From: Candidatus Symbiobacter mobilis CR
GTDB taxonomy: Bacteria > Pseudomonadota > Gammaproteobacteria > Burkholderiales > Burkholderiaceae_C
Direction of reading: 5' to 3'
Assembly (NCBI RefSeq): GCF_000477435.1
Contig: NC_022576.1
Coordinates: forward strand, 1,612,001 to 1,676,000
Length of the DNA: 64,000 nucleotides
Of the stretch, positions 15,162-36,426 are shown piece by piece (position 1 is the stretch's first letter; every line of letters begins with the position of its first letter). The notes under the pieces are model-generated. The model was given only the letters and a program-made list of their open reading frames with translations. It was not told the DNA's origin and searched no databases. The position numbers and the translations under genes were made by a program.

Positions 15162-15275
15162 CAGAAATAGCTTGTCGTTGGCCCAGCGTCGCAGCGTTGC
15201 CCTCCATAGTTGCCCTTCGTTTTTTCCCCACCCCGCTTTCTCACCCCGGTATTCCCGTTTTCAGGAGCACACCAC

Positions 15276-15932: not shown

Positions 15933-15943
15933 CGAGGGTGACG

Positions 15944-18979: not shown

Positions 18980-21900
18980 ATGCGCCCATCCGTCACGCTC
19001 GCGGCTTGGATCCTGACTCTTTTGCTATCTGCCTGCGGGGGTGGAGGGGGAGGAGGCGGTGGCACTCCGCTAACCACGGTCGATACCACTGCCTCCGGTG
19101 GCGGCACGGCTACCACCGTCGCGACGACGACCACGACGACGGTGCCGAAGCCGGAGGCGATGTTCACCGATGCGCCCAGTACGCTGACGCTGGAGTTAGA
19201 AGAAGCGCCCTGCTACACCATCCGGGGTGGCGTTCCCCCATACACCGCGCAATCCGACAACTCCAAGCTGCTGGCCGCGACGAAGCCCGCACCTTCGACA
19301 CGCGCGGGTGCCATGGAAGGCGACTACGAGTTTTGCATCGCCCCCAAAGCGGTCGGTACTGCATCGATCGTCATCAAAGATGCCGTAGGCGTTAGCAGTT
19401 CGGTCATCGTCACGATCCCCGACTCGGACGTTCTGTTCACCGATCTGGGCACTGCGCTCAATCTGGCCGTCGGCACCACCAATTTCGCTACGGTGTATGG
19501 GGGCACCACCTTCGATCTGGACCCCAATATTCCGTACCGCGTCAACAACAGCAACCCCAGCGTCGTCCGCACTGAGATCCAAGGCAACCGACTGGTCGTA
19601 CAGGCATTGGCTGCCGGTACCGCCACGATTGCCATCAGTGACGCCGAAGGCAAGCTGACCACCATTGCCGTCACGGCACTGCCCCCCACGGAGCTGTACA
19701 CCGATGCCCCCAGTACCGTCACCCTCGCTGCAGGCACGTCGGCCATATATCAGGTTTTTGGCGGTTCCCAGACTGGGCAACCCAATCCCCTTCCCTACCA
19801 AGTCGTCAACAGCAAACCCGCCGTGGCGATAGGGCACGTCGAGGATGGCATCCTGACCATCGAGGCCAAGGAATACGGTGAGGCAACCATCCTGATTCGT
19901 GACCCGGTGGATTCCACCCGCAGCAAAAAAATCATCGTCTCGGTGCCAGCATCGGGCGTGCTGTATTCGACTGCCCCAGCCAATCTGGAGCTTGCCCGGG
20001 AAGCCTTCGGCGAATTCCTGCTCTTCGGTGGCACTGCACCGTACAAGGTCGCCCTCAACAACAAACCCCTGGTCGCCAGCGCCAGCATCGACGGCAAAAA
20101 CCTGACGATCACTGGCAAACAGCCTGGAACTACGACGCTCGTCGTGCAAGACAACCTGGGCGCCAAGCTGACGATCACCGTTACCGTGACGGCACCGCAG
20201 ACGATCGCGCTATTCACGACTGCACCAGATTCCCTGACCATGCCCCAAGCAGTCGATGCCACGCAGACTTTCGCCATCCTTGGCGGAACACCCGACTACA
20301 CCGTCACCAGTAGCAACCCTGACGTGGTTGCTGTGGATTCCCCCGCATCTGGCGAAAACAGCTACACCCTCCGCACCAAAGGCCAGGGTGCGGCGACGAT
20401 CGTCATCCGCGATGCCGAAGGCGTCACCATCCAGATCGTCGCCACGGTGCCCTTGCGCGCCCTGTTTGCCGACGCCCCGGACAACCTCGTTCTCAGCGCT
20501 ACGGAACCGGCCAATACCTACATCGTCACCCTTTCCGGAGGCGCTCTAGGCTATTCAGCCCAATCCGCGCAGCCTGCGGTTGCATCCGTGGCGTTGATCG
20601 ACGGAACGACGAACCAGTTCCGCATCACTGGCCACACCCCCGGAACGACCTCCATCCTGTTCAAAGACACAGCCAATGCCTCGATAGTCATTGCCGTGAC
20701 TGTCCCCACCCCCGCCGCGCTCTTCACCACTGCGGGAACTGCCATGCAAATCCTGCATGGAACGACCGTCTTTCATACGGTGCATGGCGGCACCAAGCCG
20801 TATTCCGTCGGCAGCAGCGGGGAAATCATTGATGCAGAGTACGACACAGTCAATGAACGGCTCGTCATCAAGGCCCTATCGCCTGGGCGCGAAGTCCTCG
20901 CAATCAGTGATGCCGTGGGCCATGTCATCACTGTCGACATCACCGTCCAATCCGGTCTCTATACCGATGCGCCGACAAGTTTTGCCCTTGCCACGGGCGC
21001 CGGAAACGAATACACCATTTACAACGGCGTACCCCGCGACACTGCGGACCCCGATGATCCGAAATACTTTGTCAACAGCACGCATCCCAACGTCGCCAGC
21101 GCCACCGTCAAAGGCTCCACGCTGTACATAGCCGGGGTTGCCGAAGGGAGCGCGACGATCGTCGTCAGCGATAAAGCCGGCGCGACGATCTCCATCACCG
21201 TCACCGTTACCCCTCTGGGCGCGCTTACCAGCACCGCGCCAGCCACCCTCTCGCTGCCCGCTGGAACCGGCAATCTGTACACCGTTTCCGGCGGGAAAGG
21301 CCCCTACGAGCCATCCAGCGCTAATCCCTTGCTCGTCACCGCCAGCATGGAAGGTTCGGTGCTCCGTATCGATGCTCTTCCCGGAACCCTTGGTGGATCG
21401 AGCAACGTCCTGGTCAAAGATGCCAATGGAACGACCTTAACGATTGCCGTCACGGTCACGACGGTTCCGCTGATGACGACGGCGCCTGCGCGGCTGGCCA
21501 TCGCTGCGGATACCGAACCCAAAGTCTTCGCGATTCTGGGCGGAACGGGCAAATACTCGGTCGTCAACACCCATCCGGCTATCGCCTCCGCCGAGATCGA
21601 CGAAGAAAAATCCCTCCTTGCCATCAAGGGGTCGATGCCGGGAACGGGGTCGATCCTGCTCAGTGACTCCGGCGGCGCAACGGTGACGATCGAAGTCGTC
21701 GTCAACGCCCCAGGCCCGCTGTACCTCAGCGCCCCCAGTTGCGTCAATACCGGTGGCGGAAGCGGCGCGCCAGTCTGTGGCAGCACGGTGTACATCGCTC
21801 CCGGCGATTCCGATGTCTTCGACATCATCGGCGGCATCCCGCCCTACGTCGCCAACAGCAGCAACAAAGCCATTGGAATCGGAACCATCAAAGACGGCAA

Positions 21901-24900
21901 CCGCCTGCACGTCGAAGCCTCTGCATCGGCCACCCCCGCCGCCACCGCGCAAATTTCCGTGACCGACGCAGCCGGGTCGCAAATCAACCTCACGCTTGTC
22001 GCGCACATCCCGCCGCTTTCCACTACGGCGCCGACTAGCACGACCGTGGCCATCGGCGGCACCCCGGTGGAATTCCAGCTCACCGGCGGTGTCGCTTCCT
22101 CTTCCTATATCGTGGCAAGCAGCGACCCCACCGTCGTCAAAGTCGAACTCGACCCAGACAACGGCAATGTCTATACCCTCACCGGTCTGAAGCCAGGTTC
22201 CGCAGTCATCACGCTGCGTGATGCGGCTGGCACGGCCCTCTCTGTCGCAGTGACCGTTCCCGCTGTGGATGCGCTCTTCACCAACGCGCCATCAAGCATC
22301 GTGCTGGCTGCAGGGTCGCCACCCTACCGAGCCAACGTCTACGGCGGAATGCGCTTTGGCGGCGAAGCTCCGTATATCGCCGGAAGCAGCAACCCCGCAG
22401 TCGCGACCGCGACGGTCGATGAGGAAGGCACCCTGCTGCTGCAAGCGCATTCCGCAGGAACAGCACAGATTGCGATCAACGACGCGAAGGGGGCGGTCGT
22501 TTTCGTCTACGTCACCGTTCCCGATCCAGCCACGCTGTACACCGATGCCCCTGCCAATCTGACGCTCGCCGCAAACACCGAAAACCAGTTCACCATCTTT
22601 GGCGGAACGCCGATTGATGGGCCACAGCAGTACCAAGTCAACAACAGCGATGACAGCATTGCCACGGTGTCGATTGCCGGTTCGTCGATCACCATCGCGG
22701 GCTTGGCTGCCGGTTCCACGCAGGTCACCATCAGTGATGCGAAAGGCAAAACCTTGACCTTGGCTGTCACCGTTCCCGCTGCAAGCGCTTTGACAACCAC
22801 CGCTCCCGCCAACCTGACGCTGACTGCCGGAACGGGCAATTCCTATGTCGTATCTGGTGGTGTCGCGCCCTATATGCCTCCTATCAGCGCGAACAAGGAC
22901 CTCGTCACTGCGTCGATCGACAACGACAACAAGGTGCTGCGCATTGATGCCGTTGCCGGAACCCTTGGCGGTACAAGCAACGTCATCGTTCGCGATAGCA
23001 AAGGCGCATCGTTGACGATTGCGGTCAGCGTTCCGACAGTGCCTCTCTTTACCACGGCACCGTCCACGCTCAACCTGCCTAGGTCTGCGGAATCTCTACC
23101 TTACGCCATCTATGGTGGAACGCCTGAATACACGGTGACAACATCGCATCCCGGTGTCGTCCAGGTCGAACGGGATAGCACGACTTCGTTCACGCTGACT
23201 CCCAAATCGGGCGGTACGGCCTCCGTTGAAATCAAAGATGCCAAAGGCCAGACGGTCACCATCTCGGTCACAGTCGCATCGACCGCGCTCTTCACGGACG
23301 CGCCTGCGAACATTTCTTTGGCTGCCGGCACCGACTACCGCGTTGCTGTTTCCGGCGGTATCGGCCCCTACACCGCGTTGAGCAGCTCACCCAATATCGC
23401 CACCACATCCACTGTCGGCCCGGATGGCGCCTTCACGATTTCCGCAGTCGCCACGGCCACATCGGCGGTATCGATCAAGGTGCAAGACTCCACCGGCACA
23501 GCCATCACCCTTTCCGTCACGGTCTTTGCGCCGACGGCAGTCTTCACCGACACCCCATCGACGATCACCCTCGCGCAAGGCGCAACGCATTTTTCCCATA
23601 TTTTTGGCGGGACAGGTCCCTATACCGTCAACAACAGCAACCCGGCTGTGGTCACCACTCCCGTTGGCGCGCTGGCTGCTGACGTTTCCAGCTTCTCCAT
23701 CGCAGCCCGGTCGGCAGGTACTGCCACCATCGCCATTGCTGATGCACAAGGCAGCGTCACCACCATCACCGTGACTGTCCCCGCAGCCGGTGTCGTCTTC
23801 ACGGATGCCCCGACGGGCCTAACGCTCGCTACCGATACCGCCAGCCCGTCGTACAGCATCGGCGGTGGGGAACCGCTGGCGAATGGCAACTACCGTATCA
23901 CGAGCAGCAGCCCTTCTGTGGCTGTTCCTTCGGTGGCGGAAGGCAAGGCCTTCTCGATCATCGGCATGGGTAGCGGTTCGGCCAACATCATCATCACCGA
24001 CGCCCAGGGGAAATCGGCAACCATCGCCGTCACGGTCGTCCCACCCGGAACGCTGATGACCTCTGCGCCCGGAATCCTGACGCTGAACGCTGGTTCCGGC
24101 AACACCTATGTCATTTCCGGCGGGGTCAAGCCCTATACCGTAACCAGCGCCAAACCCGCACTGGTCACTGCCACCCTCAGCGGTGACGATCGCTCGTTCC
24201 TGGAGATCGATGCCCTGCCCGGCACGGCAGGCGGCCAAAGCAATGTCATCGTTCGCGATGCCCAAGGCGCTTCGGTGACGATCTCCGTCACCGTTCCCAC
24301 GCTCGATCTCTTCACTACCGCCCCGTCTACGTTGAACCTGCCCAAGGCGGGTACTGCAACCTTCGCCATCCTCGGCGGGTCTCCGGCATACACCGTCACC
24401 AGCTCTGATACGGCTGTCGTCACCGTTACCCAGCCCACCGCTGATTCGTACATGCTCACTGCCAAGTCCGGCGGTACCGCAACCATCCAGATCAAGGATT
24501 CCAAAGGCGCTACCGTCTCGGTTTCCGTCACCGTCGCTTCCACTGCACTCTTCGTCGATGCTCCGCCCAATGTCGTCGTCGCCATCGGTGCTGACTACGA
24601 TGTCACTGTCTCCGGCGGCGTTGGCCCCTACACCGCGCTGAGCAGCGATCCCGCCATCGCAACAGCTTCCACAGTCGGCAACGATGGCGTATTCACCGTC
24701 CATGGCATCGCTGCAGGTTCCGCAGCCGTCACCGTCAAGGACGCTGCGGGTACCACTTTCACCCTCTCCCTCACTGTCCCCGCTCCGGCTGCTCTGTTTA
24801 GTACTGCGCCCGCAACCCTGCAAATCCTTCACGGTGCTACCAACACCTACAAGGTCTTTGGCGGTACCAAGCCTTATGTCGTTAACAGCAACGGTGTCAT

Positions 24901-27900
24901 CGCAGAAGCCACCATCGCCGCTGACGACACCCTCACCATCACAGGCAAGGTGCCCGGGCACACAACCATCGCCATCAGCGATGCCAAGGGCGCTGTGATC
25001 TCCATCGACGTCACCGTCAACCAAGGCATGTACTCCGATGCCCCGGCATCCCTCACCCTCGCCAGCGGTACCGGAAACACCTACACCGTCTTCGGTGGCA
25101 CCCAGTTCCCCGGCGCCGATAAGTACTCCGTCAACGTCGGTGATACCCGCGTCGTCACCGCCACCATCTCCGGCGCCGATCTCGCCATCACCGGTGTCTC
25201 GGTAGGTACCACCAATGTCCTCGTTCGCGATGCTTCCGGTACCACCGTCACCATCGCCGTCACTGTCACCGCTCCCGGCGCATTGCTCACCACCGCGCCC
25301 ACCGACCTCAGCCTCTCCGCTGGTACCGGCAACACCTACGTCATCTCCGGCGGCGTCGGCCCCTACACCGCGACCAGCGCCAACACCAGCCTCGTCACCG
25401 CTTCCACCAGCGGCGCCAACGGTGCGTTCCTCCGCATCGATGCCCTCGCAGGCACCACAGGCGGACAAAGCAATGTCATCGTTCGCGATGCACAAGGCAA
25501 TTCCGTCACCATCTCCGTCACCGTGCCTACCCTGGCACTCTTCACCACCGCTCCTGCCTCAGTCAATCTGTCCAAGGCAGCCACCGCGACCTTCGCGATC
25601 CTCGGCGGGTCTCCCAACTACACCGTCACCAGTTCTGACGATTCCGTCCTTGTCGCCACCCAGCCCGATGCGGATTCGTTCCTGTTGACCGCCAAATCCG
25701 GTGGTACCGCTACTGTCCAAATCAAGGATTCCAAGGGCGCTACCGTCACTGTTGCAGTCACCGTCGCAGCCACCACGCTCTTCGTCGACGCTCCAGCCAA
25801 CATCATCGTCGCCGATGGCACCGATTACGACGTCACCATCTCCGGCGGCGTGGGCCCCTACACCGCCCTCAGCAGCACTCCTGCTGTCGCCACTGCCTCC
25901 GCTGTCGGCAATGACGGGGGCTTCACCATCTCGGGCGTCGATCCAGGCGTCACGGCCATCACCGTCAAGGACGCTACCGGCGCAACCCTCACCCTCTCCG
26001 TCACCGTTCCCGCTCCCGCAACGCTCTTTACCGACACACCCTCCGCGCTCACCCTCTCCATCGGAACCAGCCACTTCACCCGCGTCTTCGGCGGTACCGG
26101 CCCCTACTCCGTCAACAACAGCAATCCCGCTGTCGTCACCACCGCTACCGGCTCCCTCGGCGCTGGCGTCTCCGCGTTCACCATCTCCGCCAAGTCCGCT
26201 GGCTCCGCCACCGTCGCCATCGCTGACTCTCTGGGCAATACCCTCACCATCGCCGTCACCGTGCCCACCGCCGCGACTGTCTTCACCGACGGGCCTGCAA
26301 GCATCGCACTCGCTGCGGGTACTTCCAGCTCCGTCTTCACCGTCGGCGGCGGCGAACCCTTCGCGGGCGGCAATTACCACTTCTCCAGCTCCAACCCCGC
26401 CGTTGCCACTCCCTCGGTCACCGAAGGCAAGTCCTTCACCATTGATGCGCTCGCCAGCGGGACGGCCAATATCGTCGCCATCGACTCGAAGGGTGCCAGC
26501 ACAATCATCCCGGTCACCGTCGCTGCACCCAGTGCCTTGTTCACCACCGCCCCTGCGACCCTCACCCTCACGATGGGCACTTCCAGTCCGACCTATTCCA
26601 TTTCCGGGGGCGTGCCTTTCTCTACTGATGGGAGTTACTCCATCGTCAGTGATATCCCTGACCTCGCTCGTGCCATAGCGACTACGACCACAGTGGGGGG
26701 CATCACTTCAACATCCTTTGTTATCGAGGCTCTGCCCAACACCAACGGTGGATTTACCTATATCACCATCCGGGACTCCCAAGGCAACCAACGAACCGTC
26801 TACGTCACGGTGCCCGCTCCCGATCCGCTCTTTACGACTGCCCCGGACGTGCTGAACCTGCCCAAGGCAGGCACGGCGACCTTCGCGATCCTCGGTGGGT
26901 CTCCCGGCTATACCGTCACCAGTTCCAATACGGCTGTCATCGCCGTCACCCAACCTGACGCAAGCTCATACACCTTGACTGCCAAGTCCGGTGGTTATGC
27001 AGCTATTCAGATCAAAGATTCTCGAGGCGTGATGGTCATCATCTCCGTCAATGTCGCTTCCACTACGCTCTTTTTCGATGCCCCGCCCAATGTCATCCTC
27101 GCTGCCAACAGCGATTACCCGGTCACCATCTCCGGCGGCGTAGGTCCCTACACCGCAACCAGCGGCGATCCTTCCGTCGCCACCGCATCCGCCGTCGGCA
27201 ACGATGGTGTCTTCACGATCCATGGTGTCGCTGCAGGAACTGCAGCGATGGCCATCAAGGATGCTACAGGCACTTCCATCGTCCTTTCTGTCACCGTCCC
27301 CGCCCCAACCACCCTCTTTACCACCGCAGGTACTGCCATGCAACTCCTGCATGGAACGACCGCTTTCCACACGATCCATGGCGGTACCGAGCCCTACACC
27401 GTCCACAGCAGCGGGGAAATCATCCAAGCCGACTATGACCCCATTACCCGCCAACTCGCTATCAGAGCAGTATCGGAAGGACATGAGATCATGGCCATCA
27501 GCGATGCCGTCGGCAAAGTCGTCACCATCGACATCACCGTCCAATCCGGTATGTATACCGATGCTCCTGCCAGCTTCTCTCTTGCCATGGGTGCTGGGAA
27601 CGAGTACACCATCTATGGCGGCGTCCCCCATAGCACCACCGGCCCCAACGAACCCAAGTACAACGTCAACAATACCGACCCGAATGTCGTCAACGCCACC
27701 ATCCGTGGTTCCACCCTGTCGATCGGCGGTCTATCCCAAGGAACTGCCACGCTCGTGGTCAGTGATACCGCTGGTGCCACGATCGCCGTCACCGTCACCG
27801 TCGTCGCTCCAAGCGCACTGCTGACCACCGCACCCTCTAATCTCACACTATCGGCTGGATCAGGCAACACCTACGTCATCTCCGGCGGCGTAGGCCCCTA

Positions 27901-30900
27901 CACCGCGACCAGCGCCAATACCGGCCTCGTCACCGCTTCCACCAGCGGAACGAACGGCTCGCTGCTGCGCATTGATGCCGTAGCAGGCACCACCGGCGGA
28001 CAAAGCAATGTCATCGTTCGCGACAACCAAGGCGCTTCGGTCACTATCTCCGTCACCGTTCCCACTATTGATCTCTTCACCACTGCGCCAGCAACGCTTG
28101 ATCTCCCCCGGTTTGGATCGGGCATTTATGCCATCGTCGGCGGGTCTCCCATCTATACCGTCACCAGCGCCAACGAGGCGATCGTCGAAGTCACCCGACC
28201 TGACGCACAGTCCTTTACGTTGACAGCCAAGTCCGGCGGTACGACCACCGTCCAGATCAAGGATTCCCAAGGCAAGACAGTAAGCATCTCCGTCACCGTT
28301 GCAGCCACCGCACTCTTTGTCGATGCTCCGACCAACATCATCGTTGGCGTGGGCGCCGACTACCCAGTCACCATCTCTGGCGGCGTAGGCCCGTATACCG
28401 CGCTGGGTAGCGATGCAACCGTTGCCACCACGACGGCAGTCGATGCCAATGGTCTGTTCACGATCCATGGTGTCGGAGCCGGTACCGCCGCGATCACGGT
28501 CAAAGACGCCACGAGCGCGACCCTGACAGTCTCCGTCACGGTTCCCGCTCCGACGGCGTTGTACTCCGACGCGCCAGCTACGCTCCAGATCCTCCAGGGC
28601 GCGACGAACTACTACACAATTTATGGCGGAACCAAACCCTACACCGTCAATGGCAACAGCGTCGTCGCCAAGGCCACGCTGATCGATGACACCTTGAGCC
28701 TGTCGGGCCTGGTTCCCGGCCACCAAACCGTTGCGATCAGCGATGCCAAAGGCGCAGTCATCACGATTGATGTGACCGTCAACCAAGGCATGTACACCGA
28801 TGCCCCGGCCAACCTCAGCTTGGCTAGCGGAACCGGCAACACCTTCGCGGTCTTTGGTGGCATTCCGCTGTCCGGCGCGAACAAATACACCGTCAATGTT
28901 GGCGATACCCGCATTGCCACGGCCTTCGTAACCGGAACCACGTTGGCTGTCACAGGCGTTGCCCCAGGTTCCACCACCGTGGTGCTGAGCGACTCTGTAG
29001 GCGCAACGGTTGCGGTCAACGTCACGATCACCGCGCCCGGCGCGCTGTCCTCGACCGCGCCCAGCTCGCTGACCTTAACCACGGGTACCGGCAACAACTA
29101 CGTCGTATCTGGTGGCGTTGCGCCGTACACCGTCACCAGCGCCAACGAAGCCCTGGTCGAAGCCACCGTTGCAGGCGCAGTGCTCCGCATCGATGCCGTT
29201 GCGGGAACGGCTGGCGGGGTCAGCAACGTCATCGTCCGTGACAACCAAGGTGCAACCTACACCATCGCCGTGACTGCGCAACCCGCCACATTGATGACGA
29301 CTGCTCCGTCACCGCTGGCCATCGCTGCGGGGGTGGGCGCACGCACCTTTGCCGTGTTCGGCGGTACGGGCGACTACACGGTCGAAAGTACCTACCCGGA
29401 TATCGTCTCGGCTACCCTGGCTGGCGATGTGTTGGAGATCACGGGTTCCATCCCCGGTACTGGGGCAGTCCTCGTTCGCGATTCGTCCGGTGCCATCGTC
29501 CAGATCGACGTGGTCGTCAATGCCCAAGGGCCGTTGTACCTTAGCGCACCAGGATGTACGAACGAGGGGGGTGGAGGCTCCGCCCCGGTCTGCGGCAGCA
29601 CCATCTCGGTGGCACCAGGCGATTCCAACACGTTCAACATCATCGGAGGCATTCCACCCTACGTGGCAAACAGCAGCGACCTGCGTATCGGGTATGGGAC
29701 CATCGTCAACGGCAACCAATTGGAAGTCACAGGGCTGGTGACAGACATCCTGCCCCCCACTGTGCAAATTTCGGTCACCGACGCGGCTGGGAGGCAGATC
29801 AACCTGACCCTCAACGTACAGGCCAGCCTGCTTGCAACCACAGCTCCATCCAACCTGACCCTTGCCGCAACGGGCGCGGCGGCTACGGGCAGTTATGTGG
29901 TGTCCGGGGGAGTTGGCCCGTACTCCATCTTGAGCTCGGATACTTCCGTGGCCACCGTCTCGATGCCCAACCCGGCGAACGGTGCCTTCACCGTCACCGG
30001 CAAGGCAATGGGAACGACGACCCTGACTTTGCGCGATGCGACGAATGCGACGATCACAATCGGCGTAACAGTCCCTGCGCCGCAAACGCTGTTTGCCGAT
30101 ACGCCCTCCTCCCTGGTGCTCGCAGCAGACAAAACGCACACCGTGCGGATGCAAGGCGGCATTCCCTTTGCGTCGGGCAGTCCCTATAGCGTGGGAACGA
30201 GCAACCCCGCAGTCGCCACGGCGGCGGTCGATGCCCAAGGCGTGGTGACGATCACCGCCAAATCGGCAGGGACGGCGCTGATTGCCATTAGCGACTCGCA
30301 GGCTAGCACCGTCACGATCACCGTGACCGTTCCCGCGCCGGATGCGCTCTATACCGATGCGCCGGCAAGCCTGTCCCTTGCGCAGGGAACGGCGAACACG
30401 TTCACGATCTTCGGTGGCGTACCGTATGAGACAGATCCGAACTACACCGCGAACGTCAGCCACGAATCAATCGTCGCCGCAACGATTGCAGGGTCGTCGT
30501 TGACCCTTGATGCCCTATCCGCAGGCAATGCCAGCGTCGTGTTGAGCGATTCCCAAGGGAACCGGATCACCTTGAACGTCACCGTTTCCGACTCCGCTGC
30601 CTTGGGTACCACTGCGCCCAACAACATCGTCTTGACGATGGGCGAATCCGACAGCTACAGCGTGTTTGGCGGCACTGCGCCCTACACAGCGGAAAGCGGC
30701 CAACCCTCGCTGGTCTCGGCAACGATGGGCGGAGGCGATGGAAAACGCCTCGACCTTGCTGCGGCGACCGGAACGAATGGCGGTACCGCGAACGTGATCG
30801 TGACTGACGCGAAGGGCGCGCAGCTTGCGCTCGCAGTCACGGTACCGGCTCCGACCGCGTTGTTCACGACTGCGCCCAACACCGTGACCATGCCTAGCGC

Positions 30901-33900
30901 CGGAGGTACCCGCAGCTTCTCGATCCATGGCGGGAAAGCAGGCTACACCGTTACCAGCAGTGATACCGGAGTGGTCAGCGTGACGCTGGCAGGTTCCGAC
31001 TACACCCTCACCAGCGTGGCGGGTGGTACTGCGACGATCACCATCAAAGACAGCCAAGGCGCCACCGTCAGCCTGACGGCAACGGTGCCCTCCGGCCCGG
31101 CACTCTTTACCGACGCCCCGGCCAACATCACCCTGGGCACGGCATCCCCCGCCTACACGGTGACGATTTCCGGCGGCACTGCTCCCTACGCGGCACAAAG
31201 CAGTGACCCTGCCGTCGTGACGGCCACCACCCCAGCGGCCAACGGTAAGTTCGACCTCACGGCCATCGGCGCAGGCACTGCCGCCGTGTACGTGACCGAC
31301 AGCCTCGGCGCGACCATCGTCCTGTCCGTGACCGTTCCGGCGCCGACTGCCCTCTTCAGCACTGCGCCGACGACCATGGAAATCCTGCACGGAACGACGA
31401 ACTTTTACAAGGTCTACGGTGGCACGGCACCCTACGTCGTCAACACGAGCGGCTTTGTCGCCAAGGCCGTGCTTGATCCGGTCACGCACGAACTGGCAAT
31501 CACCGGGGTGGTTACCGGGCATGAAACCATCGCAGTCAGTGATGCCAACGGTGCCGTCATCACGATTGACGCCACCGTGAACCAGGGGATGTACACCGAC
31601 GCGCCGACTGACTTGACATTGGCCAGCGGAACGGGGGTTTCCTTCACCATCTTTGGCGGTACGCCTTTCGTCGATCCGAACGACCCCAACAATCGCTACT
31701 ACGAGATCGAAAGCACCCGTGACGGCGTGGTCACCGCGACGATCACCCAATCCGTGCTCGACATTGCTGGCGTTGCCCCCGGGAACACCCAGCTCATCGT
31801 TCGCGACGCAGCAGGGGTGACCATCACGCTGTCCGCGACGGTCGTTGCTCCGGGGTCGCTACTCTCCACTGCGCCTTCCGACCTCACGCTCGTTGCCGGG
31901 AAGTCGGAAGACTACACGGTGTACGGAGGAACGGCTCCATACCACGCTGAAAGCTCACAGCCGAGCCTGGTGACTGCTGGCATCAATGGATCGACGCTGA
32001 CCATTGCCGCAGCAACGGGTTCGACCGGCGGGACGACACAAGTCCTGCTGACCGACAGTGTTGGCACGCAACGCACGATCACGGTCACGATCACCACGCC
32101 GCCTGCCCTGTTCACAACCGCGCCTTCCTCGCTGGCCATCGCTTCTGGCGGCGCTGCCAGAACGTTCGCGGTGTTGGGCGGGACAGCGCCGTACTCCGTG
32201 GTCAACACGCACCCGGCGATTGCGCAGGGTGTGATCGCCGCCAACACGGGCACCCTGGACATCACCGGCGTCAGCCAAGGAACGGCGCAATTGCTGATCA
32301 GCGATAGCCAAGGCGCGACAGTGACGGTATCCGTCACCGTTACCGCACCCGGCCCGCTGTTCACCAGCGCACCCTTGGACGTGACGCTCGCGACCGGGAT
32401 GTTCGGCAGCTATTCGATCCACGGCGGTACACCAACCTACGTCGTCAGCAGCAGCGATAGCGCTGTGGCAACGGCGGAACTCGTGAACCTGACCTCGGTC
32501 AAGATCACTGCCGTGGCATCGGGAACAGCCACCGTGACGGTGACCGACTTGGCTGGGACAGTGGTATCCATCGACGTGACCGTTCCATCGCCCGGTACGC
32601 TGTACACCACTGCACCCAGTACGCTGTACATCTCTCGCACATCCAGCCCATTCACCTACGCCATCTCCGGCGGATATGCACCCTACTCGGCAACAAGTAG
32701 CGAGCCTGGAATCGTCAGTGCAGCAGTGCAAGGATCGATGCTGAGCATCAGCGCAGTGTCATCGACCGTGCCAGCAGGCGTGGTGGACGTGGTGCTGCGT
32801 GACGCGCAAGGCCAAACCGTGACGATCACCGTCCACGTCGGCACATCGACCATGCTCTACACGACCGCGCCGATCGTTGCCTGCCCATCCAATACCCAAG
32901 GGGCCGCTACGTGCGTGATCACCGCGCCGAATTCGACGTACACGTACCTCGTCCACGGCGGATCGCCCTTTGAAGGCCAGTTGGCTTCCTACGCAGCGAC
33001 GAGCAGCAACGAATCCATCGTCACAGGCAGTTTTGCCGGGCCGGTGCTCACCATCGTCACGGGCGCCAATAGCGGGTTCGGAACGATCCAGGTGACCGAT
33101 GCGATGGGAACCAAGATCGACATTCCCGTGTGGGTAGGGACGGGTAACAGCGGGGGTACTGCGGTGTCTTCGTACCCCGTTCTATCCGCGAAGTTGCAAA
33201 CGCTTGCCGGAGCAGACACCAGCGCCATCGATGCGACCAACTACACCCTGCTCAAAGTCACGTTGAAAGATCCGTTCAGCGTCGGCATCGCCAACCAGGT
33301 CGTCAACGCCACGGGCGATACGAGCCAAGTCAGCTTCCCAGACGGCAGCGCAGCCCTGACCGACGCCACCGGCGTGGCCACGCTCAAAGTTGCACGGGCC
33401 AACCTGCTGGCGACGGGGGCTGGCGCGCTGACCGTCAACTACAACTACCAGCCCGGGATGATTACCCAATACAGCGACTCTTCCGCGCCACCCGCCACGG
33501 GCAGCCAACTATCAACCTATGTGGGCTACCAGGTCACGACTGCGAATATCACGCTCGAAGACCTGACCGTTGGTGATACCGATGACAACCCCGAAATCCT
33601 GCCAGCCTATGGAACGAGCCAGGTTACGGTGTCAGTCAATATCAATGGTGCGCCTGCGACATCGACCCCTGTATCGGTGAACTTCAGCGCCTCGTGCGGG
33701 CAGATCAGTCCTGCCACAGCGACGACCGACAACACCGGCAAAGTGCTCGTCACCTACTCAGCAACCGATCCTGCAGGCACTTCGCCCAGTACCCTGGGTT
33801 GCAGCGGCAAAACGGCACAAATCACCGCCAGCACCAGCGGCGCCGCTGCGGTCAGCAAGAATATTGCGATCCAAAGTGCCCCCGCAACGAGCATTGGCTT

Positions 33901-35215
33901 CATTAGCGCGGAGCCAACGCGAATCTATCTGGCCAATGCTTGCGGTACGAACGCCGCATGCAAAACATCGTCGGTATTGACCTATCGCTTGGTCAACCAG
34001 TCCGGCGAAGGGATTGCAGGGCAACAAGTTGTTCTGTCGCTCAAATCGCTTAGCCCCGGCTTGCCGAAGGCTACCTTCGATACCAGTGGCAGCACGGCCA
34101 ACGTTACCCTGACGACGAATGCCGACGGTTACGTCACCCAGCCCGTCTATTCCGGTTCGGTTCCAACCAATGTGATCGTCAACGCTGCGCTGGCAAGCAA
34201 TCTGGGCATCCAAACCGATTCGTCGGTATTGACCATTGCGTCGGGCAGGCCAGCGCAAGTGCGGATGAGCATCGCAGCCAAAGAGTGGGCTATTGAAGGG
34301 TTCAATGTCGATGGAACGACGACGACAGTGACCGTCAGCCTGGCTGACCGCCAAGGCAACCCCGTACCGGATGGAACGGTCGTCAACTTCGTGACCGAAG
34401 GCGGCGTGATGATCCCGGCCACCTGCACCACAGGGACGACACCAGGGGATTCGCAGTGTTCGGTGACCATCCGGTCACAAGCGCCGAGGCCAGTTCCACT
34501 AGGCTCCATCCCCCCCCCACACACCGTTGAAAGCTTTGATCCCGGTACCCTTGCACCCCAAACGGGTCGGGTCACGATCCTGGCTTATGTGGCTGGCGAA
34601 GAAGACTTTACCGACACGAATGGCAACAACGTCTATGACTACGACTGTGTTAACAATGTTAAAGAATCTTTCACAGACTTGGGTATTGCTTTCCGGGACG
34701 ATCAGCTACCCAGTACTGTATTAACTCGCAGTGGCTACAGCGATGGAGAATTCACCGTGCCACGGAATGCGGAAGCCGGCGTGTGTGGTGTGTCTGGTAC
34801 CACCCCCACCCCCACTGCTGGCGACGGCGTATGGGGTGCTGCGGATATCCGCGCCCAAATCCCCATCGTCTTTGCCACCAGTGGAGCAAATATCGGGGAT
34901 CTGGATCGGAATGGAGACGGTATCGTGGAATCACCCTATGTACAAACCACCAGCAGCCTAAGCTTCTGGGTCTATGACGGCAACGGCAACAGCATGCCCA
35001 CCGGAACGACTGTTACTGTTGAAGCAGCCGACAACACGCCACTCAACAACATGACGTGCGCAATGGCTAGTGGCGCCAATGTCGTCGTGCCCAATACCCT
35101 GGATCCCATGCACATCGGCTCTAGTTACTCCAATTGCGCAGTGGGTGATCTGATCTTCGTCACCGTCACGAGTCCCTTGGGTATGGCCACTTCCACCACA
35201 TTCCCAATCCACTGA
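18980..35215 (+). CDS. Giant Ig-like repeat lipoprotein, putative surface adhesin or stalk (5411 residues)
   Basis: No named orthologue recognised. Start ATG 18980 has GAGG 8 nt upstream and opens a lipoprotein signal ending LLLSACG. The Cys is followed by nine glycines and a Thr-rich linker; position +2 is Gly, not Asp, which by the Lol rule predicts outer-membrane sorting. Residues about 60-4730 are about 55 tandem domains of 78-99 residues built on x-L-[FY]-T-x-A-P at the start, GGxxPY in the middle and GTATIxIxDxxGxxxTIxVTV at the end. This resembles the Big_2 Ig-like fold (inference). Residues about 4731-5411 hold about five Big_1/invasin-like domains plus two calcium-loop-like stretches, DTNGNNVYD (near 5212) and DLDRNGDGIVE (near 5307). 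There is no beta-barrel, LPXTG or RTX tail, so anchoring appears to be by the N-terminal lipid. It lies between pilQ and aroK and ends at a strong terminator. An adhesin or long surface fibre is inferred, not shown. Confidence 0.85.
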   Translation: MRPSVTLAAWILTLLLSACGGGGGGGGGTPLTTVDTTASGGGTATTVATTTTTTVPKPEAMFTDAPSTLTLELEEAPCYTIRGGVPPYTAQSDNSKLLAATKPAPSTRAGAMEGDYEFCIAPKAVGTASIVIKDAVGVSSSVIVTIPDSDVLFTDLGTALNLAVGTTNFATVYGGTTFDLDPNIPYRVNNSNPSVVRTEIQGNRLVVQALAAGTATIAISDAEGKLTTIAVTALPPTELYTDAPSTVTLAAGTSAIYQVFGGSQTGQPNPLPYQVVNSKPAVAIGHVEDGILTIEAKEYGEATILIRDPVDSTRSKKIIVSVPASGVLYSTAPANLELAREAFGEFLLFGGTAPYKVALNNKPLVASASIDGKNLTITGKQPGTTTLVVQDNLGAKLTITVTVTAPQTIALFTTAPDSLTMPQAVDATQTFAILGGTPDYTVTSSNPDVVAVDSPASGENSYTLRTKGQGAATIVIRDAEGVTIQIVATVPLRALFADAPDNLVLSATEPANTYIVTLSGGALGYSAQSAQPAVASVALIDGTTNQFRITGHTPGTTSILFKDTANASIVIAVTVPTPAALFTTAGTAMQILHGTTVFHTVHGGTKPYSVGSSGEIIDAEYDTVNERLVIKALSPGREVLAISDAVGHVITVDITVQSGLYTDAPTSFALATGAGNEYTIYNGVPRDTADPDDPKYFVNSTHPNVASATVKGSTLYIAGVAEGSATIVVSDKAGATISITVTVTPLGALTSTAPATLSLPAGTGNLYTVSGGKGPYEPSSANPLLVTASMEGSVLRIDALPGTLGGSSNVLVKDANGTTLTIAVTVTTVPLMTTAPARLAIAADTEPKVFAILGGTGKYSVVNTHPAIASAEIDEEKSLLAIKGSMPGTGSILLSDSGGATVTIEVVVNAPGPLYLSAPSCVNTGGGSGAPVCGSTVYIAPGDSDVFDIIGGIPPYVANSSNKAIGIGTIKDGNRLHVEASASATPAATAQISVTDAAGSQINLTLVAHIPPLSTTAPTSTTVAIGGTPVEFQLTGGVASSSYIVASSDPTVVKVELDPDNGNVYTLTGLKPGSAVITLRDAAGTALSVAVTVPAVDALFTNAPSSIVLAAGSPPYRANVYGGMRFGGEAPYIAGSSNPAVATATVDEEGTLLLQAHSAGTAQIAINDAKGAVVFVYVTVPDPATLYTDAPANLTLAANTENQFTIFGGTPIDGPQQYQVNNSDDSIATVSIAGSSITIAGLAAGSTQVTISDAKGKTLTLAVTVPAASALTTTAPANLTLTAGTGNSYVVSGGVAPYMPPISANKDLVTASIDNDNKVLRIDAVAGTLGGTSNVIVRDSKGASLTIAVSVPTVPLFTTAPSTLNLPRSAESLPYAIYGGTPEYTVTTSHPGVVQVERDSTTSFTLTPKSGGTASVEIKDAKGQTVTISVTVASTALFTDAPANISLAAGTDYRVAVSGGIGPYTALSSSPNIATTSTVGPDGAFTISAVATATSAVSIKVQDSTGTAITLSVTVFAPTAVFTDTPSTITLAQGATHFSHIFGGTGPYTVNNSNPAVVTTPVGALAADVSSFSIAARSAGTATIAIADAQGSVTTITVTVPAAGVVFTDAPTGLTLATDTASPSYSIGGGEPLANGNYRITSSSPSVAVPSVAEGKAFSIIGMGSGSANIIITDAQGKSATIAVTVVPPGTLMTSAPGILTLNAGSGNTYVISGGVKPYTVTSAKPALVTATLSGDDRSFLEIDALPGTAGGQSNVIVRDAQGASVTISVTVPTLDLFTTAPSTLNLPKAGTATFAILGGSPAYTVTSSDTAVVTVTQPTADSYMLTAKSGGTATIQIKDSKGATVSVSVTVASTALFVDAPPNVVVAIGADYDVTVSGGVGPYTALSSDPAIATASTVGNDGVFTVHGIAAGSAAVTVKDAAGTTFTLSLTVPAPAALFSTAPATLQILHGATNTYKVFGGTKPYVVNSNGVIAEATIAADDTLTITGKVPGHTTIAISDAKGAVISIDVTVNQGMYSDAPASLTLASGTGNTYTVFGGTQFPGADKYSVNVGDTRVVTATISGADLAITGVSVGTTNVLVRDASGTTVTIAVTVTAPGALLTTAPTDLSLSAGTGNTYVISGGVGPYTATSANTSLVTASTSGANGAFLRIDALAGTTGGQSNVIVRDAQGNSVTISVTVPTLALFTTAPASVNLSKAATATFAILGGSPNYTVTSSDDSVLVATQPDADSFLLTAKSGGTATVQIKDSKGATVTVAVTVAATTLFVDAPANIIVADGTDYDVTISGGVGPYTALSSTPAVATASAVGNDGGFTISGVDPGVTAITVKDATGATLTLSVTVPAPATLFTDTPSALTLSIGTSHFTRVFGGTGPYSVNNSNPAVVTTATGSLGAGVSAFTISAKSAGSATVAIADSLGNTLTIAVTVPTAATVFTDGPASIALAAGTSSSVFTVGGGEPFAGGNYHFSSSNPAVATPSVTEGKSFTIDALASGTANIVAIDSKGASTIIPVTVAAPSALFTTAPATLTLTMGTSSPTYSISGGVPFSTDGSYSIVSDIPDLARAIATTTTVGGITSTSFVIEALPNTNGGFTYITIRDSQGNQRTVYVTVPAPDPLFTTAPDVLNLPKAGTATFAILGGSPGYTVTSSNTAVIAVTQPDASSYTLTAKSGGYAAIQIKDSRGVMVIISVNVASTTLFFDAPPNVILAANSDYPVTISGGVGPYTATSGDPSVATASAVGNDGVFTIHGVAAGTAAMAIKDATGTSIVLSVTVPAPTTLFTTAGTAMQLLHGTTAFHTIHGGTEPYTVHSSGEIIQADYDPITRQLAIRAVSEGHEIMAISDAVGKVVTIDITVQSGMYTDAPASFSLAMGAGNEYTIYGGVPHSTTGPNEPKYNVNNTDPNVVNATIRGSTLSIGGLSQGTATLVVSDTAGATIAVTVTVVAPSALLTTAPSNLTLSAGSGNTYVISGGVGPYTATSANTGLVTASTSGTNGSLLRIDAVAGTTGGQSNVIVRDNQGASVTISVTVPTIDLFTTAPATLDLPRFGSGIYAIVGGSPIYTVTSANEAIVEVTRPDAQSFTLTAKSGGTTTVQIKDSQGKTVSISVTVAATALFVDAPTNIIVGVGADYPVTISGGVGPYTALGSDATVATTTAVDANGLFTIHGVGAGTAAITVKDATSATLTVSVTVPAPTALYSDAPATLQILQGATNYYTIYGGTKPYTVNGNSVVAKATLIDDTLSLSGLVPGHQTVAISDAKGAVITIDVTVNQGMYTDAPANLSLASGTGNTFAVFGGIPLSGANKYTVNVGDTRIATAFVTGTTLAVTGVAPGSTTVVLSDSVGATVAVNVTITAPGALSSTAPSSLTLTTGTGNNYVVSGGVAPYTVTSANEALVEATVAGAVLRIDAVAGTAGGVSNVIVRDNQGATYTIAVTAQPATLMTTAPSPLAIAAGVGARTFAVFGGTGDYTVESTYPDIVSATLAGDVLEITGSIPGTGAVLVRDSSGAIVQIDVVVNAQGPLYLSAPGCTNEGGGGSAPVCGSTISVAPGDSNTFNIIGGIPPYVANSSDLRIGYGTIVNGNQLEVTGLVTDILPPTVQISVTDAAGRQINLTLNVQASLLATTAPSNLTLAATGAAATGSYVVSGGVGPYSILSSDTSVATVSMPNPANGAFTVTGKAMGTTTLTLRDATNATITIGVTVPAPQTLFADTPSSLVLAADKTHTVRMQGGIPFASGSPYSVGTSNPAVATAAVDAQGVVTITAKSAGTALIAISDSQASTVTITVTVPAPDALYTDAPASLSLAQGTANTFTIFGGVPYETDPNYTANVSHESIVAATIAGSSLTLDALSAGNASVVLSDSQGNRITLNVTVSDSAALGTTAPNNIVLTMGESDSYSVFGGTAPYTAESGQPSLVSATMGGGDGKRLDLAAATGTNGGTANVIVTDAKGAQLALAVTVPAPTALFTTAPNTVTMPSAGGTRSFSIHGGKAGYTVTSSDTGVVSVTLAGSDYTLTSVAGGTATITIKDSQGATVSLTATVPSGPALFTDAPANITLGTASPAYTVTISGGTAPYAAQSSDPAVVTATTPAANGKFDLTAIGAGTAAVYVTDSLGATIVLSVTVPAPTALFSTAPTTMEILHGTTNFYKVYGGTAPYVVNTSGFVAKAVLDPVTHELAITGVVTGHETIAVSDANGAVITIDATVNQGMYTDAPTDLTLASGTGVSFTIFGGTPFVDPNDPNNRYYEIESTRDGVVTATITQSVLDIAGVAPGNTQLIVRDAAGVTITLSATVVAPGSLLSTAPSDLTLVAGKSEDYTVYGGTAPYHAESSQPSLVTAGINGSTLTIAAATGSTGGTTQVLLTDSVGTQRTITVTITTPPALFTTAPSSLAIASGGAARTFAVLGGTAPYSVVNTHPAIAQGVIAANTGTLDITGVSQGTAQLLISDSQGATVTVSVTVTAPGPLFTSAPLDVTLATGMFGSYSIHGGTPTYVVSSSDSAVATAELVNLTSVKITAVASGTATVTVTDLAGTVVSIDVTVPSPGTLYTTAPSTLYISRTSSPFTYAISGGYAPYSATSSEPGIVSAAVQGSMLSISAVSSTVPAGVVDVVLRDAQGQTVTITVHVGTSTMLYTTAPIVACPSNTQGAATCVITAPNSTYTYLVHGGSPFEGQLASYAATSSNESIVTGSFAGPVLTIVTGANSGFGTIQVTDAMGTKIDIPVWVGTGNSGGTAVSSYPVLSAKLQTLAGADTSAIDATNYTLLKVTLKDPFSVGIANQVVNATGDTSQVSFPDGSAALTDATGVATLKVARANLLATGAGALTVNYNYQPGMITQYSDSSAPPATGSQLSTYVGYQVTTANITLEDLTVGDTDDNPEILPAYGTSQVTVSVNINGAPATSTPVSVNFSASCGQISPATATTDNTGKVLVTYSATDPAGTSPSTLGCSGKTAQITASTSGAAAVSKNIAIQSAPATSIGFISAEPTRIYLANACGTNAACKTSSVLTYRLVNQSGEGIAGQQVVLSLKSLSPGLPKATFDTSGSTANVTLTTNADGYVTQPVYSGSVPTNVIVNAALASNLGIQTDSSVLTIASGRPAQVRMSIAAKEWAIEGFNVDGTTTTVTVSLADRQGNPVPDGTVVNFVTEGGVMIPATCTTGTTPGDSQCSVTIRSQAPRPVPLGSIPPPHTVESFDPGTLAPQTGRVTILAYVAGEEDFTDTNGNNVYDYDCVNNVKESFTDLGIAFRDDQLPSTVLTRSGYSDGEFTVPRNAEAGVCGVSGTTPTPTAGDGVWGAADIRAQIPIVFATSGANIGDLDRNGDGIVESPYVQTTSSLSFWVYDGNGNSMPTGTTVTVEAADNTPLNNMTCAMASGANVVVPNTLDPMHIGSSYSNCAVGDLIFVTVTSPLGMATSTTFPIH
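21470..23043 (+). repeat. Six-domain variant block (FGHIDE), copy 1
   Basis: Six Ig-like domains instead of five. The second domain (PLYLSAPSC start, then APVCGSTVYIAPGDS) carries two Cys residues, which are otherwise almost absent from the array, so a local disulfide is possible. The same domain order recurs at 29288-30856. Confidence 0.75.
29288..30856 (+). repeat. Six-domain variant block (FGHIDE), copy 2
   Basis: Second copy of the six-domain block. The Cys-bearing domain reads PLYLSAPGC, then APVCGSTISVAPGDS. Length is 1569 bp against 1574 bp for copy 1, about 7.8 kb away. Both copies directly follow an ABCDE block and are followed by an A domain. Confidence 0.75.
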
Positions 35216-35306: not shown

Positions 35307-35807
35307 ATGAAAAGTTGGTGGACTGGCCCGCGTGCATGGGCCTTGGGCGCTGCGTCGGTCTTGGTGGTAGCGTTGTTGGTGACGGTGTTCTTGCTGCGCC
35401 CTGCGTACCAGGATCAGCAGTCGCAGTCGTTATTGGCCGATGTATTTCCTTCGGTCGCTGCCTGCCGTGCGGACGTGGCGCGCGTCGTGCAGACGACGAC
35501 GGCCCCGGTGCTCTCGCCTTCGCTGTTCAGTTGCGACGGGGGCATCTCGACGGGGGTGCGCATCTCCAAGCACCTCAAATCGATCGCGGTCAACCAGGCA
35601 GGCGTCATCACCGTGACCCTGCACCACCGCACCCTACCGGAACTGTCTCCCACGACGAACACGCTCACCGTCGTTCCGCTCACCGCCAAAGGTCACCCCT
35701 TGCAGCCTGGCGATGTGCGCCAAAAAATTGCAAGCTGGCGCTGCGGCAGCCGTGCAGACGGCACGACGATCCCTGCCAAACTGCTCCCCGCCGACTGCAA
35801 AGGGTAG
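35307..35807 (+). CDS. Pilin-like protein lacking a prepilin leader
   Basis: 166 residues, start ATG with GGAG 7 nt upstream. The C-terminal two-thirds match type IVa pilins in pattern: PAYQDQ after the hydrophobic helix, SPSLFSCDG, SKHLKSIAVNQAGVITVTL, LTVVPL, then WRCGSRADGTTIPAKLLPADCKG with the two Cys of the pilin D-region. The N-terminus is not pilin: residues 1-31 (MKSWWTGPRAWALGAASVLV then a hydrophobic run) lack the Gly/Phe cleavage site and Glu5 of GFTLIE. It therefore should not be cut by PilD and would be a bitopic membrane protein with a periplasmic pilin head. It lies between the giant repeat gene and aroK, downstream of pilMNOPQ. A minor pilin-like or accessory role is inferred. 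Confidence 0.75.
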   Translation: MKSWWTGPRAWALGAASVLVVALLVTVFLLRPAYQDQQSQSLLADVFPSVAACRADVARVVQTTTAPVLSPSLFSCDGGISTGVRISKHLKSIAVNQAGVITVTLHHRTLPELSPTTNTLTVVPLTAKGHPLQPGDVRQKIASWRCGSRADGTTIPAKLLPADCKG

Positions 35808-35826
35808 ACACCAGCCCAGTCGCGCA

Positions 35827-36426
35827 ATGATTGCGCTGATCGGCCTGCCGGGTTCCGGCAAAACGACGGTAGGCCGCCAACTGGCCCGGCGGCTGCAAGT
35901 CCCTTTTCTCGACCTTGATCACGCAATCGAACGAGAGCTGGGGTGTTCGATTCGACTGTGCTTCGAACAACAAGGCGAAGAGTACTTTCGGAACATCGAA
36001 AGCGCCGTGCTCGCACAACGCACGCAGCAATTCGACGGCGTGCTATCGACAGGCGGAGGCGCGGTGCTACGCGAATGCAACCGCCGCCTGCTGCGCGAAC
36101 GCGCCTGCGTGGTCTACCTGCACGCCACGGCGGAAGAACTGCACCGGCGGCTACGCCACGACAAAAACCGCCCGCTACTCCAGGTAGAGGACATGCAAAG
36201 CCGCCTGCACGAGCTGCACGACCAACGCCACCCCCTGTACCGGGAAACTGCACATCTCATGGTCGAAACCGGGCACCCTCCGCTAGGGCGTATCGTCGAC
36301 AAAATCCTGACACGATGCGGCCCGATCCTTCCCGGCGACACCATGCACGCAATGCACGATGACCACAGCGCCCACAACGACTGCGGGCCCTCGAAGGCCC
36401 GCAATGATGGAATAGCCATGGAATAG
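35827..36426 (+). CDS. aroK: Shikimate kinase
   Basis: Phosphorylates shikimate at the 3-hydroxyl with ATP in the chorismate pathway, cytoplasmic. Start ATG 35827, 17 bp after the pilin-like gene. P-loop GLPGSGKTT (about 6-14), Asp pair in FLDLDHAIE, the shikimate-binding STGGGAVLR, and the LID segment RRLRHDKNRPLL are all present. The kinase core ends near residue 170; a polar His/Asp-rich tail of about 28 residues follows and is encoded across a perfect hairpin (36382-36403). In related genomes aroK normally follows pilQ and precedes aroB; here the giant gene precedes it and no aroB follows. Confidence 0.9.
   Translation: MIALIGLPGSGKTTVGRQLARRLQVPFLDLDHAIERELGCSIRLCFEQQGEEYFRNIESAVLAQRTQQFDGVLSTGGGAVLRECNRRLLRERACVVYLHATAEELHRRLRHDKNRPLLQVEDMQSRLHELHDQRHPLYRETAHLMVETGHPPLGRIVDKILTRCGPILPGDTMHAMHDDHSAHNDCGPSKARNDGIAME
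36382..36403 (+). repeat. Perfect 8-bp inverted repeat inside the aroK 3' end
   Basis: Arms TGCGGGCC (36382-36389) and GGCCCGCA (36396-36403) with loop CTCGAA. It ends 23 bp before the aroK stop and has no T-tract, so it is not a standard terminator. It may be an mRNA-stabilising or REP-type palindrome that has become part of the coding frame. Confidence 0.65.

Follow-up and report, generated by a model that had tools for sequence, protein, structure and literature searches.

We analysed a stretch of 64,000 nucleotides from Candidatus Symbiobacter mobilis CR (contig NC_022576.1, positions 1,612,001 to 1,676,000), hereafter called the window, in which a giant gene fills the gap between pilQ and aroK. 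The gene is a single intact open reading frame (ORF) on the forward strand, running from an ATG at window position 18980 to 35215 and encoding 5411 amino acids with zero internal stops. All other features of the window described here are co-directed with it. Genes for type IVa pilus assembly (pilM, pilN, pilO, pilP and pilQ; 13468..18722) were found directly upstream, based on Pfam matches to PilM_2, PilN, PilO, PilP and Secretin/AMIN. Downstream are a gene for a 166-residue protein with a hydrophobic N-terminus and a Pfam Pilin domain (35307..35807) and aroK, encoding shikimate kinase (35824..36426; Pfam SKI, start codon chosen by eye), which forms the far edge of the slot.

The giant protein comprises a lipoprotein signal, 55 immunoglobulin (Ig)-like domains (residues 61–4719) and a C-terminal head of about 690 residues. 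As read from the sequence, the signal peptide ends with the lipobox LLLSAC and the anchor Cys19 (18980..19036), and it is followed by a linker that begins with a run of nine glycines and continues as a Thr/Ser-rich segment (19037..19159). The domain array starts at residue 61, 42 residues after the anchor Cys. No N-terminal beta-barrel precedes the Ig-like domains, and no barrel family was among the Pfam matches of the protein. The mature lipoprotein would have 5393 residues, a mass of 535 kDa and an isoelectric point of 4.4. Besides the anchor, the head contains ten Cys; the stalk has eight, spread as two per domain over four domains. The guanine–cytosine (GC) content of the gene is 0.614 versus 0.605 for the window, and that of third codon positions is 0.717 versus 0.750 in pilQ. 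No second copy of the protein was found by protein and family searches over the whole 2.99-Mb genome. Promoter and terminator scans at both edges of the gene found nothing, and no NCBIfam family matched the head or residues 1–1776.

The number of 55 domains was obtained by a hand count of the repeated start motif and again with a repeat hidden Markov model (HMM) built from the same domains; a profile made from 14 domains of the window likewise gave 55 matches. Based on identities and a domain tree, the array opens with domains 1–4 (19160..20209; repeat motif and tree), which have no close copy in the window. It continues with block 1 (A-B-C-D-E, domains 5–9, 20210..21469), block 2 (F-G-H-I-D-E, domains 10–15, 21470..23044), block 3 (A-B-I-J-E, domains 16–20, 23045..24307), block 4 (A-B-C-D-E, domains 21–25, 24308..25537), block 5 (A-B-I-J-E′, domains 26–30, 25538..26827, domain 30 being aberrant), block 6 (A-B-C-D-E, domains 31–35, 26828..28072), block 7 (A-B-C-D-E, domains 36–40, 28073..29290), block 8 (F-G-H-I-D-E, domains 41–46, 29291..30859) and block 9 (A-B-C-D-E, domains 47–51, 30860..32107). 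The seven five-domain blocks measure 1218–1290 bp each. The C-terminal end of the array reads F-x-y-z (domains 52–55, 32108..33136), and none of x, y and z is closely copied within the window (best identities 0.46, 0.49 and 0.34). Both G domains (domains 11 and 42; 21719–22015 and 29534–29830) carry a short insertion near their start flanked by two Cys, which is also present in P0002, a relative described below (G, L and P numbers are our own labels).

The mean identity over all pairs of the 55 domains was 0.347. Sorted by distance along the array, it was 0.332 at lag 1, 0.424 at lag 5, 0.415 at lag 10, 0.402 at lag 15, 0.423 at lag 26 and 0.430 at lag 31. Among 20,000 random domain orders, none reached the observed identity at lags 5, 10, 26 and 31, and one did so at lag 15. 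At lag 1, 728 of the 20,000 orders were as low as observed, and adjacent domains are no more alike than chance; none of the 55 domains finds its best match at lag 1. The tree was calculated from 135 domains of eight proteins (137 were cut, and two fragments from the ends of L129 and L052 were dropped). In it, A, B, C, F, G and J are each split off by one starred branch, support is weaker for D (98/62), I (82/67) and H (domains 12 and 43; 67/49), and E takes two changes on the tree, with domain 30 grouping apart from the other E domains. Domains 1, 2 and 4 group with the first domains of L129 and L122, and domain 3 has no resolved partner. The original prediction, made from the sequence, had described about 55 Ig-like domains in a five-domain order with the substituted forms A-B-I-J-E and F-G-H-I-D-E, divergent neighbours and similar domains one block away, and had read this as duplication of multi-domain blocks. 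The count, the order and the peaks at lags 5, 10, 15, 26 and 31 rather than 1 agree with it, and together with the tree the lag identities support growth of the stalk by duplication of multi-domain blocks. The per-domain tree, which had been named as a check, recovered most of the subtypes, with H and I poorly supported and domain 30 lying outside E.

The same prediction had proposed exchange between non-adjacent blocks, with blocks 1 and 6 sharing one C/D type and blocks 4, 7 and 9 another. These two groups are borne out: blocks 1 and 6 have identities of 0.71 in C and 0.64 in D, and blocks 4, 7 and 9 have 0.58–0.72 in C and 0.41–0.61 in D. Compared over windows of 40 columns, block 6 agrees with block 4 at 61–87% in A-B, 36–62% in C-D and 77–93% in E, and it matches block 1 at 41–68% in A, 29–53% in B, 56–81% in C-D and 54–62% in E. 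Thus, block 6 resembles block 4 in A, B and E and block 1 in C and D. The tree agrees with this mosaic: C7 and C33 pair (100/100), A31 groups with A21 and A26 (96/82), and E20, E25 and E35 stand together (100/93). Non-adjacent exchange is therefore supported. Furthermore, in block averages of similarity, computed without the E domain of block 5, the blocks at the array edges were lowest (0.471 and 0.493) and the five between them reached 0.556–0.630, a pattern expected from unequal exchange. No exact DNA repeat of at least 30 bp is left in the giant gene. For 21 pairs, hand-picked among close domain pairs of the same subtype, the synonymous divergence (dS) was 0.50–2.21 and the median ratio of nonsynonymous to synonymous differences (pN/pS) was 0.36. 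Because of these values and the lack of exact repeats, the amplification is judged to be old and its copies constrained. Most likely, the stalk would have lengthened as blocks of five and six domains underwent unequal exchange, and the copies would then have diverged under purifying selection.

An AlphaFold2 model of block 4 had a mean predicted local distance difference test score (pLDDT) of 90.1 and a predicted template modelling score (pTM) of 0.42 with seven aligned sequences, and it was all beta except for one short helix. The head (33137..35215, including the stop codon) was modelled with a mean pLDDT of 84.5 and a pTM of 0.57 (67 sequences) and was nearly all beta. Given the low pTM, the arrangement of the domains in these models is not fixed. 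In the Pfam scan, Big_1 was matched in the head with 44.6 bits against a cut-off of 34.9 when a 703-residue piece was used, and with 22.6 bits, under the cut-off, in a longer piece of 1072 residues. The stalk repeats were matched by PF13629, a family that forms the N-terminal domain of Tad-type secretins; a kinship with secretins was rejected, since the giant protein has no secretin domain, and the match is read as a common Ig-like domain. Big_2 was absent from the matches of the stalk up to an E-value of 1, where PF13629 and others were matched. In a profile search against the PDB, the head gave one weak match, to intimin (E 0.042). The block gave six: three to the MS2 coat protein (best E 1.5e-4), which were taken as chance, and one each to intimin (E 4e-4), a protein with an Ig-like domain (E 1.5e-3) and a phage tail protein (E 0.081). 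The block model and the Big_1 match support domains of beta-sandwich type, for which an Ig-like topology is expected. Of the two families suggested originally, Big_1 holds for the 703-residue piece of the head, and Big_2 did not appear in the stalk; the near all-beta model of one five-domain block is in line with the predicted fold.

Based on the 14-domain profile, related stalk domains were found in 29 of 89 genus genomes, that of the window included. The counts per genome were 55 (window), 30, 19, 18, 16, 16, 15, 12, 11, 8 and fewer, often spread over several contigs and more than one gene. A close relative, P0002 (3159 residues, lacking a signal at its beginning), has an array of 30 domains in which identity is 0.52 at lag 5, against 0.37 at lag 1. 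A search of giants among 5.8 billion proteins, in which at least 1003 candidates were scored, listed as matches (at least 10) the window's own protein, the close P0002 and eight distant repeat proteins, two of which carry source names of Bacteroidetes/Flavobacteriales. From the fifth domain, the order is A-B-C-D-E-F-G-H-I-J-E-A in L129 (taken to be contig G251:C291) and in G253, and A-B-C-D-E-F in L122. Among short arrays, G012 and P0013 read 1-C-D-E-F, and L188 also has C-D-E-F; part of the subtype letters of the relatives are best matches only. Several other arrays, the longest with at least 30 domains, thus have these subtypes in a similar order, and the subtypes therefore predate the split of these lineages. 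A and B of window blocks 3–7 form their own clades (99/92 and 100/91), and those of P0002 blocks 12–26 form separate clades (100/91 and 100/92), so that block amplification took place separately at least twice. In sequence terms, the ends of the array are conserved, and amplification of the blocks in its middle occurred independently in two or more lineages. In other arrays the lag-1 identity is high, with 0.66 in L109 (G001), 0.48 in L241 (G252:C592) and 0.53 in L248 (G015:C252). This suggests duplication of single domains in these three arrays, unlike the block growth of the window.

A search with the last 703 residues found at least 502 proteins at E ≤ 0.001 among 8000 scored. The 120 head relatives among the matches listed (P0011–P0130, some incomplete) have 508–1192 residues and 0–6 Ig domains; G012 has 8 and L134 has 9. 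It had been supposed that the protein is held only by its lipid, with no barrel or wall-sorting tail. No barrel was indeed seen, but the protein does end in a module, a conserved head of about 690 residues with hundreds of relatives. The slot proteins have at least three kinds of heads. Type I is found in the window, P0012, P0013, P0028 and L134; type II in P0002, G012, G022, G023, G018, L123 and L175; and type III in G010, G015, R. ferrireducens L118, L120 and Rubrivivax L194. The window head is 58–59% identical to those of P0012 and P0013 and matches the head profile, of which it is itself a part, at E 1.4e-281. Its matches to type II are weak (G018, 28%, E 5e-10; L175, 27%, E 5e-4), and between types II and III the likeness is about 30%. 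The same stalk subtypes precede heads of types I and II. In the tree, z pairs with the last domain of P0013 (head I; 100/97) and the last domain of P0002 with that of G012 (head II; 100/99). F domains from proteins with either kind of head fall into one clade (99/93); for x and y such grouping across head kinds is less firm (87/75 and 93/81). Because the last domain goes together with the kind of head and F is common to both kinds, the simplest reading would be an exchange of heads with its junction just before the last domain.

The occupancy of the slot was assessed on contigs holding both pilQ and aroK; G050, with pilQ and no aroK match within 11.7 kb, was left out. A CGGG-type lipoprotein lies between the two genes in 17 of 21 genomes of the window's genus, and in the other four the slot is empty (gap of 39–67 bp). 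In other families, all 12 genomes in which both genes were located had an empty slot (76–326 bp, no ORF of at least 100 residues). Three extra genus contigs were chosen for their Ig domains, and the slot is filled in G240 and G259 and empty in G035. In the latter (L245, G035:C56), pilQ and aroK are about 60 bp apart and an eight-domain Ig lipoprotein sits directly after aroK. Of 80 named pilQ loci, 69 reach aroK; 20 are filled and 49 empty (18–108 bp), many of the empty ones being Variovorax. One slot (L189, RXJQ01000002.1) holds two successive CGGGGG lipoproteins of 579 and 710 residues. The giant protein shares with this lipoprotein family the lipobox and glycine run, the position between pilQ and aroK, and a homologous type I head. 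The 166-residue protein between the giant gene and aroK scored 31.3 bits for PF00114 (cut-off 22) and is one of three such matches in the genome; no prepilin motif is visible in it by eye. Its relatives (48–56% identity) follow aroK in G012 and G007 and stand directly after the head in G252; among the loci compared, they occur only at the pilQ–aroK locus of these three genomes.

The head profile (A1) matched 37 of 150 family genomes, including the window's own. All 37 other places of the head family were fetched, and 29 of them have the arrangement pilQ-X-aroK; within this bacterial family, this slot is where head relatives occur most often. In L204, the head relative lies in an MSHA-type cluster with genes for Secretin, TPR, MshEN/T2SSE, T2SSF and N_methyl proteins, and L206 has the same gene order (pilin by Pfam, ATPase by tblastn). 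The head relative of L223 adjoins Tad, TadE and TadD genes, and in L233 a Secretin gene is 3–4 kb away. Five more loci of the genus lack both pilQ and aroK: in L081, L083 and L084 the head relative adjoins Tad genes directly, in L075 it adjoins a TPR gene at the start of the contig, and L078 has no pilus gene beside it. Several copies away from pilQ thus again sit in pilus clusters. The head relatives beside Tad genes (L081, L083, L084 and L223) have a CGGGG-type lipobox.

Based on the above results, we suggest, with confidence slightly above even, that the giant protein is a stalk-and-head lipoprotein of the outer membrane, probably exposed at the surface, that works with pili and whose stalk was lengthened by block exchange. 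The lipid anchor and the glycine-rich tether would hold it in the outer membrane, and the Ig-like stalk of variable domain number would hold the Big_1-type head at a distance set by stalk length. At or near pili, the protein would most likely act as a surface tether or adhesin. An Ig-like domain usually measures 3.5–4 nm when extended, so that 55 of them would span about 200 nm.

It should be noted that a number of points weigh against this proposal. The adjacency to pilQ is largely one inherited arrangement, and the 29 of 37 places are therefore not 29 independent events; four of the 37 (L208, L215, L231 and L232) show no pilus gene nearby. Since many pilQ-bearing relatives are without the gene, it is not needed for pilus assembly. 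The domain tree has 83 columns and its bootstrap had not settled. As judged from the sequence, the block exchange is old and was not caught in action, there being no exact 30-bp repeat, and a short-to-long direction of array change is not proven. The domains of G022, G023, G008, L134, P0030, P0046 and P0063 match those of the window at 0.33–0.49 at best. In L109, L241 and L244–L249 the lag-1 identity is 0.43–0.66, neighbours being as alike as domains at lag 5 or more so, and block growth is thus not the rule. Moreover, canonical Slam (PF04575) was unmatched in the organism's own genome up to an E-value of 1, in a search whose positive control was silent. A repeat search gave matches in 26 of 100 genomes of the order; three of the 100 were from the window's family, and none of these three matched. 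On the basis of these searches, export of the giant lipoprotein by canonical Slam was rejected. Finally, the sequence itself shows the modules, the slot, the common subtype order, the block amplification with conserved ends, the non-adjacent exchange and the head switch, whereas we infer the outer-membrane and surface location, the extension of the stalk and the role with pili.

With no Slam found, the protein might instead stay in the periplasm and scaffold or align the pilus machine (around the PilQ secretin and peptidoglycan), its stalk lying along the envelope and its length being nearly neutral. The slot next to pilQ, the relatives in Tad and MSHA-type clusters and the repeat matches to PF13629 of Tad-type secretins would fit such a role, as would the even number of non-anchor Cys per module, which suits an oxidising compartment, be it the periplasm or the outside. 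However, a rod of 55 domains would far exceed the width of the periplasm. Ig-free members are common, so that the stalk is no needed part of a scaffold, many relatives with pilQ lack the gene, and the kinds of heads differ at the same locus; we regard this explanation as unlikely. A surface adhesin of a general kind that has no mechanistic link to pili, and for which the pilQ–aroK gap is a tolerated insertion site, would account for the slot being empty in many relatives, for the four head-family loci with no pilus gene nearby and for the Ig lipoprotein placed after aroK in G035. It accounts poorly for the several copies away from pilQ that adjoin Tad and MSHA-type genes and for the pilin-domain gene at the locus in the window, G252, G007 and G012, and we give it a rather low probability.

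Repeats often misassemble and the array is unusually long, which could point to an assembly or annotation artefact or to a decaying pseudogene. However, the gene has an open frame of 5411 codons on a single 2.99-Mb contig, and with no exact repeat of at least 30 bp a repeat-collapse error is unlikely; on these grounds an assembly artefact was rejected. The median pN/pS of 0.36 in the 21 chosen pairs and the 30-domain, 3159-residue P0002, with many of the same subtypes elsewhere, likewise make an artefact or pseudogene highly improbable.

The Lig proteins of Leptospira share with the giant protein a lipoprotein signal and tandem Ig-like domains (in our case, a fold taken from AlphaFold2 and profiles). 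To our knowledge, no link of Lig proteins to a pilus locus is known. According to a review, LigA, LigB and LigC are lipoproteins that are exposed at the surface and carry Ig-like domains in a row; LigB has 12 of them and also a C-terminal extension of 772 residues, and the Lig domains are related but are not repeats (PMC7821625). The differences are in number (55 versus about 12 domains) and in family, the Lig domains being Big_2, which was not among the stalk matches. The original prediction had called a protein of this kind unusual for the surface of a Gram-negative bacterium. What is unusual is the size and the block order of the array; a lipid-held row of Ig-like domains on a bacterium with two membranes has a precedent in the Lig proteins (PMC7821625).

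SiiE of Salmonella has 53 BIg domains and 595 kDa and is a substrate of type I secretion (PMC5466336). It is comparable as a giant Ig-like protein (55 domains and 535 kDa mature here) and differs from ours, whose N-terminus carries a lipoprotein signal and whose gene stands in a pilus locus among pil genes and aroK, whereas giant adhesins of the SiiE type lack an N-terminal Sec-type signal; type I secretion genes elsewhere were not searched for. Invasin and intimin, as Big_1 proteins, resemble it in the Big_1-type head and the weak intimin profile matches given above (head E 0.042, block 4e-4), but an N-terminal beta-barrel was not seen and a lipid-anchor signal is present instead. The pilQ-slot CGGG lipoproteins of Burkholderiales have the same anchor, slot and head family, but only 0–6 Ig domains in the 120 listed head relatives (8 in G012, 9 in L134). 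Where named at source, they are a "hypothetical protein" or a "beta strand repeat-containing protein" with no function given. No description of this family was found in the literature searched, mainly freely available journal articles. In the A-band of titin, domains at the same super-repeat position are more alike, most of all in mid-array, and growth was by recursive super-repeat duplication (PMC10665226). Likewise, same-position domains of the window blocks are most alike, most clearly in mid-array, although titin is a eukaryotic muscle protein. No common descent with Lig, SiiE or titin is claimed. As a wider and tentative view, which we consider possible but doubtful, the pilus-associated stalk-and-head family would change its stalk length by higher-order block amplification and exchange its heads at the junction directly ahead of the last domain, with turnover of heads and length driven by recognition of surfaces, other cells or phages arriving via pili, as a bacterial counterpart of the titin super-repeats.

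Beyond the original prediction, the computational tools showed that the pilQ–aroK slot is used recurrently, that shorter relatives exist, that several arrays have a common order of domains, that heads are switched and that some relatives are linked to Tad and MSHA-type genes. These results prompt the question by which route, if not Slam, a lipoprotein of 535 kDa would get to the surface. The lipoprotein family recurs beside three kinds of pili, and the giant gene provides a clear bacterial case of higher-order domain repeats within one coding gene. Because natural intermediates exist (0, 3–9, at least 10, at least 18, at least 30 and 55 domains), this family allows one to trace, step by step, how blocks are amplified and homogenised.

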